Virus record (IMG/VR): IMGVR_UViG_3300033571_028173
Location: 1-22,132 of that record
Origin: a virus
Length of the DNA stretch: 22,132 nucleotides
Strand: one strand, 5' to 3'
Position numbers and translations under genes: made by a program. The notes beneath the pieces were generated by a model. That model searched no databases. It was not told the origin of the DNA and saw only the letters and a list, made by a program, of their open reading frames with translations. Positions 2,681 through 13,332 of the stretch are shown here, piece after piece. Positions within the stretch are counted from its first letter, which is position 1. Every line of letters starts with the position of its first letter.

Positions 2681-2711
2681 AAAGAGGGGAGTGAAAGCTC
2701 CCCTCTTTTTT
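2681..2711 (+). terminator. Intrinsic terminator after gp32
   Basis: A stem of at least 9 bp, AGAGGGGAG (2683-2691) with CTCCCCTCT (2698-2706), encloses a 6-base loop and is followed by a run of T. It lies between convergent genes: gp32 ends at 2663 and the leftward 666-aa gene ends at 2710. The left flank also has A residues, so it may slow leftward transcription too, but the T run on that strand is short. Confidence 0.88.
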
Positions 2712-4710
2712 ATGATAATGCTCCTGCTGCCATCATATTCTGCATTCTTATAATGGTGTTTTCTTCATTTCTTATTGAAGCTGCTTGTTGGGATCCACCA
2801 CCACCTCCAGCAGAGGTGTTATTTGTGGTATTGTTGTTTATTATTGTGGGAGCCCCGCCTCCGGTTTCTTGTTGTTCTTTTGTTGTTTGTAAGTTTGATC
2901 CCATAGCTTGAATTATGTTTCCTGTTTCTCTCGGCTGTGGTATTAAATCTGTACTTGCATTTGCAAACAATGCAGCGTTTTGTGTAACTTTATCTAGATT
3001 TTCTTTTCCTAGATAACCTTGTCCTGGAGTAATCGCTCTTCCTGCAATTTGGCTAGTTGCAAGCAAATTTGCCTGGTCTTGGGTTAACTTGCTGGTATCT
3101 ATTCCCAATCTTTGGGCCATATTTTCTTGGCCGCTTTTCATATACCAAGCTGAAGCCTTTGCGGCAATTTCCGGGTCATTTAATAGATCTGGGTTTTTCA
3201 CTAATCTATCATCCCCAAACAACGCCTGTGATGCATTAGAATAATTAGTTTTTCCTGTCATTTGAATGAAGCCGCGACCTCGATACTTATAGCCTTCTCC
3301 CGCTTCAGTATTCCCCATCTTTCTTCCAAGATCGGTATCGGCACCGTACATCAATTCTCCCATTTTTTCTGGATCGCCCTTTATGGCATCTAGTTCTGCA
3401 TTTGTATATTTTGCAGCTCTGTCGCCAAAGATACTTCTAATTCTTTCATTTGATGATCCGCCATAATTCATTCTTTCGGATATACTTTCTCCACCAGATT
3501 CTTTCATTATGTTTCCCTTAACGGCGGCGATGTAATTCGGATCAGTAATTCCTTGTTCTCTTAAAGCGTTTTCGACCAAATTCATATTTTGTTGTACTTT
3601 TTCACTTATTCTTCCTGTTGGCACTGCTGACTGCTGTTGTGGTTTTGGTTCAGTTTCAGCTTTTCCTGTTATTGGATATTTCGTGTAATCAAATGACATA
3701 TCATCGCCGGTATTTGTGGTATCCGGAACATTTCTTTGTGCAAATTCTTCATTCAATCGCTGAATGTCGGCGTTCATTCCACCACCACCATTTGTCATCA
3801 TTCTATTCAAATTTTCTACCGCTCTATTGTTGAAATATTGCGACTCGGATCTAACTCGACTTGCGCGTGCCGCCCTAGACATATTGCTTAATCCTATGAA
3901 TTCTCCAATATTTTCTATACCCCGAGCAGACCCAGACTGTATTCTTTCAAGTATTCCCATTTTTTTCCAATTTTCTTCATCTGCCTCTTCATCAATTTCC
4001 TCGTCTCCTACTCCAAATCCTCCGGCAATTGTATCTATACCAAGTCCGGCTAGATATGAAGGTAGTCTTGCTCCTGTACCCAAAGCACTAATTGCACGAC
4101 TTCCTAAGGATGCAGCACTTCTCGCGACACCACCTGCTGCTCTTGCGGCTCCGCTAGCCGCTCTTGCGATTCCTCCTGCGGCTGCTCCTCCTAAAGCTCC
4201 TGCAGCAGTTGACGAAATTAAATCGTTGTCGGATCCACCATTTCCTAAACTAGAATCAGCAAGGGATTGATTTATTTTTTCTAGTTTTGCATTTGTTTCC
4301 GTTGAACTTTTTTTCAATTCCGACAAGTCTTTTGCCGACTGTGATGTTCTTGAAAATTTTACAGCTAATGTATTTTCGCTTTCGAGTTTAGTTCTAATTC
4401 TTTCAAGTTCTCCAGACATTTTTGATAGAAAACTTAAAACTTGTTTAGAATCTAAAGAATTCGTTTGCTGAGAAATGAATGATGATTGTTGAACAGCTTT
4501 TTGAGAAGATATGTTTTGTTGTTTGTCTGACCCGTAGGAAATGGGCGATTGTCTTAGTCTTGACATATTGTCCATTAATCTATTCATTTGAAATTGAGAA
4601 GTATTTTTGACAAATTTGCCCGAGTTTACATTTGCAGAATTTGTTAATCTTCTTGCTGATGGAGAAACTTTCGCTACTTTTGTAGCAAGCTCCATTAGTG
4701 GCGCTATCAT
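2710..4710 (-). CDS. Tape-measure candidate with GH19-type peptidoglycan hydrolase domain
   Basis: The 666-aa product starts at an ATG with AGGAG nine bases upstream. Residues 1-155 are polar and likely helical, with coiled-coil-like stretches (about 95-150). Residues 165-235 are Ala/Gly-rich and hydrophobic (AAGALGGAAAGGIARAASG...), followed by an acidic stretch DEEIDEEADEE. Residues about 365-580 match phage GH19 chitinase/endolysin domains: IAAVKGNIMKESGG with the likely catalytic Glu404, SERMNYG, and YRGRGFIQMTGKTNY (476-490), then VKNPDLL and AAKASAWYMKS. The C-terminus is Asn/Thr/Gly-rich (PTIINNNTTNNTSAGGGGG). It sits directly downstream of the gp26/gp51 frameshift pair, the usual place of a tape measure gene. 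I infer a tail tape measure or hub protein (gp29 position; T4 gp29 is 590 aa) with a built-in wall-degrading domain. The hydrolase domain is firm; the tape-measure role is inference. Confidence 0.7.
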   Translation of the reverse strand: MIAPLMELATKVAKVSPSARRLTNSANVNSGKFVKNTSQFQMNRLMDNMSRLRQSPISYGSDKQQNISSQKAVQQSSFISQQTNSLDSKQVLSFLSKMSGELERIRTKLESENTLAVKFSRTSQSAKDLSELKKSSTETNAKLEKINQSLADSSLGNGGSDNDLISSTAAGALGGAAAGGIARAASGAARAAGGVARSAASLGSRAISALGTGARLPSYLAGLGIDTIAGGFGVGDEEIDEEADEENWKKMGILERIQSGSARGIENIGEFIGLSNMSRAARASRVRSESQYFNNRAVENLNRMMTNGGGGMNADIQRLNEEFAQRNVPDTTNTGDDMSFDYTKYPITGKAETEPKPQQQSAVPTGRISEKVQQNMNLVENALREQGITDPNYIAAVKGNIMKESGGESISERMNYGGSSNERIRSIFGDRAAKYTNAELDAIKGDPEKMGELMYGADTDLGRKMGNTEAGEGYKYRGRGFIQMTGKTNYSNASQALFGDDRLVKNPDLLNDPEIAAKASAWYMKSGQENMAQRLGIDTSKLTQDQANLLATSQIAGRAITPGQGYLGKENLDKVTQNAALFANASTDLIPQPRETGNIIQAMGSNLQTTKEQQETGGGAPTIINNNTTNNTSAGGGGGSQQAASIRNEENTIIRMQNMMAAGALS

Positions 4711-4753: not shown

Positions 4754-4960
4754 TTATCTTTTCTTTGCGTTCATTAAGTCTTTTATTCTTTGATTTTCAC
4801 GCTCTATATGTTGAACGAGAAGTACGATGTAAACATCTCTTTCCCAAGGTAGCATATTTTCTAATTCAGTCAAGCTATACTTGTGATGTTGCATCATTGC
4901 AAAGTTTGTAGAATAATAATTGGCAAGATTTTCCTGTCCTAGGCTTATACGAAAAAATTT
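4754..4960 (-). CDS. 51: -1 frame extension of gp26 (gp51-like baseplate hub assembly chaperone part)
   Basis: After the gp26 slippery site the -1 frame encodes 66 residues (FRISLGQENLANYYSTNFAM...) ending at 4754. It contains YSLTELENMLPWERDVYIVLLVQHIEREN, a sequence type I recall from small conserved proteins at this place in T4-like phages. There is no usable start: the frame upstream is closed by TGA near 4980, the first ATG pair (AUGAUG in TNFAMM) has no Shine-Dalgarno and would cut off conserved residues. The expected product is therefore a gp26-gp51-like fusion of about 310 aa made by -1 frameshifting. The name gp51 rests on gene order and is the least certain part. The 43 bases between its stop and the next gene hold only that gene's ribosome site. 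Confidence 0.72.
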   Translation of the reverse strand, partial: KFFRISLGQENLANYYSTNFAMMQHHKYSLTELENMLPWERDVYIVLLVQHIERENQRIKDLMNAKKR

Positions 4961-5685
4961 GTCAAGCCCTCCACAGGTATTTCATGTTCAAATTCGCATT
5001 TTTCACACTTGTGTTTTACTATAGATTTGACTTGCGGCATCGTATCAAAGAATTTTTCCATTTTATCAAAACTTGTTTTTGGTATATTTTCAATGTACTC
5101 CATTATTTCTTCTTTTTTCATTTCTTTTGCGTAAAAGATACTATCCTTTTCAAAGAAATAGTCTATACAATCCACGACCAATTCTAGGGCATTTTCTACG
5201 GATGTTTTGTTCTCTTTTGAGCCCTGCATCAATGATTCCGTTGTTTTGAAACTTGGATATTTCATTACAACGCCAATATCCTTTGTAAAAAATATTGTTG
5301 TTTTGTGTTCGGGATTTTTTTCTATTTTTGCATTTGATAAATCGTACTCAAATTTCATCACATTATTGCATTCTTCATTTTCTGAAATTGCATTTTTGCA
5401 TGTGAATGACAAATTTATTTTTTCTCCAACAGATCTCATTCTCAATTGTATGAAAAAATATTCAAGATCAAAGGAAGACATCTCGTTAACATCGAAGTTG
5501 TTTTCTATGACACAGTTAGAAACAATTTGCTTTATCGCGTTTATTGAGTCTATTTCTTTTTTCGATTCTAATGCCATTAAAAGAATTTTTTGTTCTTTGA
5601 CAAGAAACGGTCTAAAGCGAATGGTTTTTCCTGTAGAAGGAAGTTGAAAATCGTATGTTGGCAAATCAATCTTTGGCAATTTCAT
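4945..5685 (-). CDS. 26: gp26-like baseplate hub assembly protein
   Basis: The 246-aa product belongs to the T4 gp26 / T4_baseplate family of hub assembly proteins. The N-terminal LPTYDFQLPSTGKTIRFRPFLVKEQKILLMALES (8-41) and FDLEYFFIQLRMRSVGE (72-88) are typical. Four cysteines, Cys96, Cys106, Cys227 and Cys230 (HKCEKCEF), look like a zinc site holding a small beta domain. The ATG at 5685 is preferred over a TTG one codon earlier, because AAGGG (5697-5693) is 7 bases from the ATG. T4 gp26 is 208 aa. The gene lies between the gp54-like gene and the tape-measure candidate, and its last codons carry the frameshift site. By position it may act like lambda gpG, as a chaperone for the tape measure. 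Confidence 0.82.
   Translation of the reverse strand: MKLPKIDLPTYDFQLPSTGKTIRFRPFLVKEQKILLMALESKKEIDSINAIKQIVSNCVIENNFDVNEMSSFDLEYFFIQLRMRSVGEKINLSFTCKNAISENEECNNVMKFEYDLSNAKIEKNPEHKTTIFFTKDIGVVMKYPSFKTTESLMQGSKENKTSVENALELVVDCIDYFFEKDSIFYAKEMKKEEIMEYIENIPKTSFDKMEKFFDTMPQVKSIVKHKCEKCEFEHEIPVEGLTNFFV
4951..4972 (-). promoter_or_regulatory. Probable programmed -1 ribosomal frameshift site
   Basis: In the gp26 frame the last codons are ACA AAT TTT TTC GTA TAA. Two overlapping slippery heptamers fit X XXY YYZ in the correct frame: A AAT TTT (4960-4954) and T TTT TTC (4957-4951). Either slip gives the same peptide N-F-F-R. A Shine-Dalgarno-like GGAGGG (4972-4967) lies 6 and 9 bases upstream of the two heptamers, as in the dnaX-type stimulator. 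The zero-frame stop follows two codons later. I see no strong downstream stem-loop. Position and layout match the frameshift sites of tail assembly chaperone genes such as lambda G/GT. Confidence 0.78.
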
Positions 5686-5705: not shown

Positions 5706-6473
5706 TCAATCATTTGCTAGATTGCCGTTTGGAGTTACTGTTGTCGAACCTCCGCCAATAACTCCTCCACTTTCAGGAAAGAAATCCTGCACTTCAACTG
5801 CTCTTGGTGTTGGTGGAGAAGGTGCTTGTTGTCTTGGCGGATTTGTGCTTTGTATCAATGTACCTGTTTCTGGATCGCAATCACATTGATTTGTAAATCT
5901 AAAGAAATCGTATGTGAATGTAACTGGAACTCTGGCTACTTCTTCGCTAGCCCATGTCATTGGCACTTGACCAACAGATGTGGGGAAGGCTCTTTCAAAG
6001 TCCATTCTATACGAAGGTGTCTCTTTTTCATCGGTGCCATAACATATGATATAAATGTCAGCAACGTATTGATTTTTATATCTAAAATTATGATATGGAT
6101 AATCTTGCGATCTACTTGATGTTGACGGATATGTGTTAATGTAATTCATCCAGTTTTCAAATGTTGTTTTTTCCTCCATACCCGTATAGCGAAAGCTTTC
6201 TCTTTTTGATTTATTTGAGGAGCAAATAAAGTTTAGAGTTATTTCGCCGAAAAAAGTTTGAGTTGGATATTTAACGACAGGACCATACGTTCTATGATCA
6301 TAGGTGTTCAAAATTCTTCCTGGTAGATCTACGGATTCGCATCTTAGACTCAAATCTGCCAAATTGGGACAACAACCTGGGATTTTGTCAAAAAACACTT
6401 TAAATCTACTTTGTCTTTGCAAATCATGATATCGGTTTATGCTCGCAAGCATTGTTGATACTGATGCTGTCAT
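5706..6473 (-). CDS. 54: gp54-like tail tube initiator (tail-tube fold)
   Basis: The 255-aa product looks like a member of the T4 tail-tube superfamily (gp19, gp48, gp54). Residues about 20-55 (SRFKVFFDKIPGCCPNLADLSLRCESVDLPGR) are the usual tube-protein start, with the LPG turn. Residues about 150-195 (YRMDFERAFPTSVGQVPMTWASEEVARVPVTFTYDFFRF) are the conserved end of the fold. gp54 sits on top of the baseplate hub and starts tube polymerisation. The C-terminal 65 residues are a Pro/Gly/Thr-rich tail not expected in the tube fold. T4 gp54 is 320 aa. The start overlaps the upstream gene's stop (ATGA). It could instead be a diverged second gp48 or gp19; gp48 is assigned to 7531. Confidence 0.7.
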   Translation of the reverse strand: MTASVSTMLASINRYHDLQRQSRFKVFFDKIPGCCPNLADLSLRCESVDLPGRILNTYDHRTYGPVVKYPTQTFFGEITLNFICSSNKSKRESFRYTGMEEKTTFENWMNYINTYPSTSSRSQDYPYHNFRYKNQYVADIYIICYGTDEKETPSYRMDFERAFPTSVGQVPMTWASEEVARVPVTFTYDFFRFTNQCDCDPETGTLIQSTNPPRQQAPSPPTPRAVEVQDFFPESGGVIGGGSTTVTPNGNLAND

Positions 6474-12570: not shown

Positions 12571-13332
12571 ATGCCAATATCATTAAACCCAAGTTCAATC
12601 GTAACTTTCCCAAATGAGGCGATATATCCCGGCGGATCTACGCAAGTGGTCCAAACCACACCAACACAAAAAAGTATCTTTACCTCAATTGTCGAAGATG
12701 GACAATCTTCTCTTTTTCAAAACCCAGTTGGTGATTCAATAGCGGGATTAACTTCTAGTGTCAATTCTCTAGTCTTTGCCATTGATAATAATTCCTGTAG
12801 TTATGATTCAGGATCTTTGAGTAATCTTAGATCCGCTTTAACAGGATCTGGCGGACTTAGCGAAGGAATATCTTCATTTACATCGCATGTTGAAACTTTG
12901 GCTGGTGTTATAGCGGGCAGCACAAATAATGCAACACCAGGATTAGAAAGAATTCTTTCTGTCGGTAGATCACTTAACGATTTAGCCAATACGCTCGATG
13001 GAATAACAGGATGCATAAATTTGTTGGGAAATATGAGCGGTTTGTTTGCAAATGAGCAACTCAACGGCTACTCCAACGAATTGAATGACATGATATCGCA
13101 GATAAACAATTGTTTGGCGGACATTACAGATATGATCATTCGTGTAAACGAGATTAGAGATCAAATCCAAAGTATTATAAACGCAGACCGAAACTTTTTT
13201 AATGATGCTTTGGAAAGATTGAGACAAGCTTCTTTAGCTTCTTTATTGGAATACATGTACGGCGACCCGTGCGGAAGATTTATACTTGAAAGCAAGATTG
13301 GTCAAAGCAAACTCCTATCCAAGTTTACATAA
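12571..13332 (+). CDS. Unknown virion-associated protein (253 aa)
   Basis: I do not assign a function. The N-terminal 45 residues are polar and extended. The rest looks helical: residues about 55-125 with Ser/Gly-rich linkers, and about 150-220 a long amphipathic helix pattern (ELNDMISQINNCLADITDMIIRVNEIRDQIQSIINADRNFFNDALERL) that suggests a coiled coil. The ending has GDPCGRFIL. It has Cys77, Cys157 and others but no enzyme motif. It lies between the spike tip and gp25, where I recall an uncharacterised protein in T4-like cyanophages. A baseplate or hub assembly role is a guess from position. The upstream 47-base gap holds an AGAG-type weak ribosome site only. Confidence 0.7.
   Translation: MPISLNPSSIVTFPNEAIYPGGSTQVVQTTPTQKSIFTSIVEDGQSSLFQNPVGDSIAGLTSSVNSLVFAIDNNSCSYDSGSLSNLRSALTGSGGLSEGISSFTSHVETLAGVIAGSTNNATPGLERILSVGRSLNDLANTLDGITGCINLLGNMSGLFANEQLNGYSNELNDMISQINNCLADITDMIIRVNEIRDQIQSIINADRNFFNDALERLRQASLASLLEYMYGDPCGRFILESKIGQSKLLSKFT

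Follow-up and report, generated by a model that had tools for sequence, protein, structure and literature searches.

A probable programmed -1 frameshift joining gp26 to a gp51-like extension in an uncultured lineage of T4-like phages

In bacteriophage lambda, tail assembly is described by a model in which many short and few frameshifted long chaperones bind the tape-measure protein, the C-terminal part of the long form recruits the tail tube protein, and both forms then leave (PMC5009743). The tail assembly chaperones of T4-like phages were identified by Vladimirov, Gautam and Davidson (Virology 2022, doi 10.1016/j.virol.2021.11.003), and later papers quote this study for T4-like phages with a short and a fused long gene (the PRFect paper, PMC10885494) and for poly-T slippery sequences in T4-like TAC-N genes (the Adele paper, PMC12846349). 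T4 gp51 is needed for assembly and absent from the particle, and it is listed together with gp26 as a hub assembly chaperone; genetic studies also place T4 gp26 in the hub itself, which counts against the chaperone reading (PMC3004832). Aeh1 was reported as the only T4-like phage of the set compared that is without gp51 (Sullivan et al., 2010, PMC3037559).

The locus considered here is situated on the minus strand of a 22,132-base stretch of the virus record IMGVR_UViG_3300033571_028173 (“the window”), which carries a T4-like tail and baseplate gene cluster. Genes for head closure (gp4-like), DNA end protection (gp2-like) and the tail tube are followed by a gp26 homologue, an extension in its -1 frame and a 666-aa ORF. 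The tail tube gene (5706..6473; phrog_45 E=1.3e-28, PF23849 E=2e-6) lies upstream of the gp26 homologue (4945..5685), a putative short tail assembly chaperone (TAC-N) of 246 aa plus stop with its start ATG at 5685-5683 and its stop TAA at 4947-4945. This protein matches PF12322 (E=7.7e-56; 189.6 bits against a curated cut-off of 24.5) and phrog_150 (E=1.7e-61). The 3' end of its gene reads ACA AAT TTT TTC GTA TAA and contains two overlapping heptamers in the gp26 frame, T TTT TTC (4951..4957) and A AAT TTT (4954..4960). The sequence GGAGGG (4967..4972) ends 9 nt before the former and 6 nt before the latter, as described in the initial annotation made from the sequence alone. From position 4957, the -1 frame is open to a TAA at 4756-4754 and constitutes the C-terminal extension (TAC-C or gp51-like; 4754..4957), which has no start codon of its own. 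A continuation of 66 residues had been counted at this point; the long -1 frame is real, but it comprises 67 codons plus stop, including two Phe codons with 65 codons after them. The predicted fusion of gp26 and extension has 310 aa, the length that had been estimated. Elsewhere in the window, a 253-aa ORF inside the baseplate cluster (12571-13332, plus strand) is without a PHROG match.

A scan of viral contigs recovered 80 relatives, 79 of them with a visible gp26 stop. All 79 exhibit T TTT TTN in frame, 7-13 nt upstream of this stop, together with an open -1 frame encoding the same protein. For further comparison, relatives from the scan and six isolate genomes were combined and near-duplicates were taken out, giving 45 non-redundant homologues, most of which are at least 36% identical. 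The conservation of the heptamer in related gp26 ends had been named beforehand as a test, and T TTT TTN is found at this place in 45 of 45 homologues (35 TTTTTTC, 8 TTTTTTT and 2 TTTTTTA). Elsewhere in the same genes, the motif occurs in frame at 18 of 10,979 codons, and its chance of appearing at the gp26 end is about 1% per ORF. Codon choice is likewise biased: TTT is used for the first Phe in 45/45 cases at the site versus 33/74 at other Phe-Phe pairs (p=1e-11, a value that, like the others given below, is overstated because homologues are taken as independent, though their divergence is large). The presence of T TTT TTN at the end of gp26 is far beyond chance. Both heptamers had been put forward in the initial annotation and both are present in the window, but conservation is confined to T TTT TTN: A AAT TTT exists in only about half of the relatives, the others carrying AGT, GAT, TCT or GCT in front of TTT TTC. 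A AAT TTT was consequently rejected as a conserved slip site, leaving U UUU UUC as the likely one.

An SD-like motif precedes the heptamer in 39 of the 45 homologues, in agreement with the conservation anticipated for it, and mostly starts 13-15 nt upstream (GGAGG in 17, GAGG in 10, AAGGA in 9 and GAAGG in 3 cases). Matched intervals elsewhere are without an SD-like motif in 94% of cases and contain GGAGG in 0.3%. The motif is encoded by a conserved Glu-Gly pair, whose Glu codon is GAG in 25 of 35 instances at the site versus 4 of 30 elsewhere (p=3.5e-6); GGAGG itself is found in 17/35 Glu-Gly pairs at the site and in 0/30 elsewhere (p=2.5e-6). Judged by this fixed spacing and biased codon choice, the upstream element is under selection. 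SD-like stimulators are known from bacterial -1 frameshifting, for example in dnaX, and their spacing fits that seen here. Pairing of GGAGGG with the anti-SD sequence of 16S rRNA is assumed. A search for a stimulatory 3' structure in the 70 nt downstream of the heptamer gave no general signal among the homologues (mean z -1.0; window -0.2). Stable RNA with z below -3.7 was predicted in these 70 nt for four relatives, L026, L039, P-SSM2 and ValKK3.

The extension aligns nearly without gaps over the 45 sequences, following the pattern FFR.......L.NYY.TNF..MQHHKYSLTELE.M.PWERD. Its pN/pS of 0.27 across these sequences and the strongest variation at third positions of the -1 frame indicate that this frame is protein-coding and under purifying selection. 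In the window, the extension matches phrog_634 (E=2.9e-27), the “baseplate hub assembly catalyst” family of T4 gp51, and also the C-terminal end of phrog_150 (positions 231-277, E=3.5e-5).

Both parts of the locus have counterparts in T4, where genes 26 (208 aa) and 51 (249 aa) are located on opposite strands and both products match PF12322. T4 gp51 spans positions 13-280 of the 282 in phrog_150 as well as most of phrog_634, and T4 gp26 ends at phrog_150 position 235, where other phages carry the heptamer. A BLASTP alignment of T4 gp51 to the predicted fusion runs through the junction (E=7e-7). A single PF12322 copy is present in 19/19 isolate genomes with a single gp26/extension locus, and T TTT TTN is present in 17 of these (the exceptions are Ag3 and Cygsa01). 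T4, Thanatos-2, Aes508 and POP12 possess two copies, one short and one long. On the simplest reading, duplication may have replaced the frameshift, or the reverse. In Aeh1, a gp51-like extension is found in the -1 frame after TTTTTTC (positions 3260-3460 of locus L104).

A programmed -1 frameshift at the gp26 end is considered very likely on comparative grounds: the heptamer is conserved, the SD-like element is selected, the -1 frame codes for protein but lacks a start, and there is homology to T4 gp26 and gp51. GenBank records offer another view, in which the -1 frame stands as a small gene of its own (“gp51” in cyanophage records) and is translated without any fusion, either coupled to termination at the gp26 stop or initiated at an internal ATG. 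Such a separate gp51, starting at or past the gp26 stop, is often annotated, and several relatives do have an ATG overlapping or following this stop. However, the start placement differs among phages: it lies at least 50 nt past the gp26 stop in HTVC008M and Melnitz-2, and gp51 is unannotated in the records of ACG-2014d, ACG-2014j, S-WAM1, AS-szw, S-MbCM6 and Aeh1. The annotators of the Ag3 record described the downstream frame as having “no identifiable ribosome-binding site”. Relatives with a good start and ribosome site would have spoken for a separate gene, and none was found: ahead of the conserved block, none of the 45 homologues has an ATG, GTG or TTG in its -1 frame that follows an SD-like motif. 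Thirteen of them, the window included, have no -1 frame start codon of any kind before the NYYxTNF block. The lack of a usable start stated in the initial annotation is thereby borne out: ATG, GTG and TTG are absent from the -1 frame of the window ahead of the conserved part, and the earliest ATGs are the internal ATG ATG of ...NFAMMQHH..., whose Met is not conserved among homologues. An independent gene would also leave the conserved T TTT TTN and the SD-like element unexplained, and in T4 gp51 and its relatives the two parts are fused in frame; we regard an independent gene as improbable.

Slightly less probable still is that the -1 product arises from stuttering of the polymerase on the six T's and not from ribosomal slippage. 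Such slippage on runs of T has precedents in other systems, and a run of at least six T's exists in all relatives, but six T's are short for efficient transcriptional slippage in bacteria, and in 37/45 homologues the seventh base is a C or A, which terminates the run. The in-register heptamer accompanied by an SD-like element fits ribosomal slippage better. As the frame break divides parts that form one protein in T4, one might also suspect a sequencing error, or the decay of a long gene like that of T4 gp51; yet 45/45 divergent relatives, assembled independently, carry the break at the corresponding position, as do 17 of the 19 single-gene isolate genomes, and the extension evolves under purifying selection. 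These comparative data refute an assembly error or decayed gene, whose probability is negligible.

The order of tail tube gene, gp26/extension and large ORF matches that of tail assembly chaperone genes, and HTVC008M, Cr30 and LIS04 have a tape-measure annotation on the large downstream ORF. In the window, the 666-aa ORF (2710..4710) follows the extension, so that the pair indeed lies directly upstream of the tape-measure candidate, which is identified as such by its position. This ORF carries a GH19/endolysin-like domain (PF00182 E=1.2e-7, phrog_181 E=3.2e-30) and is homologous to the downstream ORF of neighbours including L003 and L007. With L007, it is 52% identical over its C-terminal half; other relatives share only short stretches near both of its ends, as if the middle had been exchanged. 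A confident AlphaFold2 model of gp26 reached a pLDDT of 89. The top match of this model in a fold search of the PDB, the HK97 tail assembly chaperone 2ob9, was below significance (E=1.9, prob 0.35), its matches among viral predicted structures were other gp26 proteins, and a sequence search of gp26 against the PDB returned nothing useful. Gene order and homology together point to a chaperone role like that in the lambda model for this phage as well, from which binding to the tape measure would be expected.

With a probability of roughly 0.93, the gp26 gene gives rise to a short chaperone and a 310-aa frameshifted long form with G/GT-like roles in tail assembly. This equivalence had been suggested in the initial annotation and draws support from the heptamer, the SD-like element, the -1 frame and its missing start, the gp51 homology, the gene order and the alternation of one and two gene copies. 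According to the proposed mechanism, the gene would encode the short chaperone, and a minority of ribosomes, assisted by pairing of GGAGGG to 16S rRNA, would move back by a single base on U UUU UUC, close to the 3' end of the gene. The slipped ribosomes would read on in the -1 frame and produce the long form, gp26 with a gp51-like domain at its C-terminus. If lambda gpG/gpGT is a guide, the tape-measure protein would be coated by many short chaperones and joined to tail tube subunits by a few long forms while the tail polymerises, and neither form would remain in the virion. Slippage, its efficiency and a chaperone role towards the tape measure are what we infer from the comparison.

Several relatives show other gp26 ends. 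Ag3, A221 and Cygsa01 exhibit ATT TTC AYY TAA and Vibrio K475 exhibits CTT TTT GCG TAA, all without T TTT TTN, and a homologous extension is still located in the -1 frame of all four. These cases seem to rely on another slip site or mechanism. In the Listeria phage LIS04, extension-like sequence (TWTDTESMAVFERTELYSRL, near position 3202 of locus L110) is found in the +1 frame of the gp26 homologue, within an unannotated gap ahead of the tape-measure gene, which suggests a +1 shift. It may be, and we would put the odds at about even, that the gp26 locus was ancestrally a frameshifting one, with a selected SD-like stimulator some 14 nt ahead of U UUU UUN, and that its mode of recoding was replaced repeatedly among T4-related phages: by duplicated short and long genes in T4 and its kin, by the divergent slip site ATT TTC AYY in Ackermannviridae and Cygsa01, and possibly by a +1 shift in LIS04.

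The initial annotation was right to recast gp26 and gp51 as tape-measure chaperones, but this reading was already in the literature with Vladimirov et al. (2022), as cited in PMC10885494 and PMC12846349. Since the chaperone frameshift of T4-like phages was published there, the finding is correct and, as far as those citations convey the study, of a kind already known. What the window adds is an uncultured T4-like lineage, and the analysis adds evidence for an SD-like stimulator. A frameshift would explain why the gp51 of cyanophages seemed shortened to about 20% and that of Aeh1 “missing” (PMC3037559). It would likewise account for the many GenBank records with an oddly started gp51 or none, and it supports the reading of “baseplate hub” annotations as tail assembly chaperones. 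The locus also shows neatly how a single recoding gene can alternate with a pair of paralogues.

With lambda gpG/gpGT, the locus shares a predicted -1 frameshift late in the short frame, a C-terminal extension without a start and a place between tail tube and tape measure. It differs in its putative slip site, U UUU UUC, and in having an SD-like stimulator, the slip site of lambda being G GGA AAG; the likeness considered here is one of arrangement. T4 gp26 is homologous to the short form of the window and T4 gp51 to its long fusion, but T4 has two separate paralogous genes on opposite strands and no frameshift, whereas the window has one locus. According to the abstract of the 2022 study, frameshifting is reportedly conserved in several T4-like groups, T4 itself using genes 26 and 51. 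As far as the TAC-N/TAC-NC pair of Vladimirov et al. (2022) is portrayed in its abstract and in later papers, it resembles the present locus in its gp26-family short form, its -1 extension homologous to the gp51 C-terminus and its poly-T slip site; relative to that account, the phage lineage is new, and the present analysis contributes the SD-like element and the codon-choice test.
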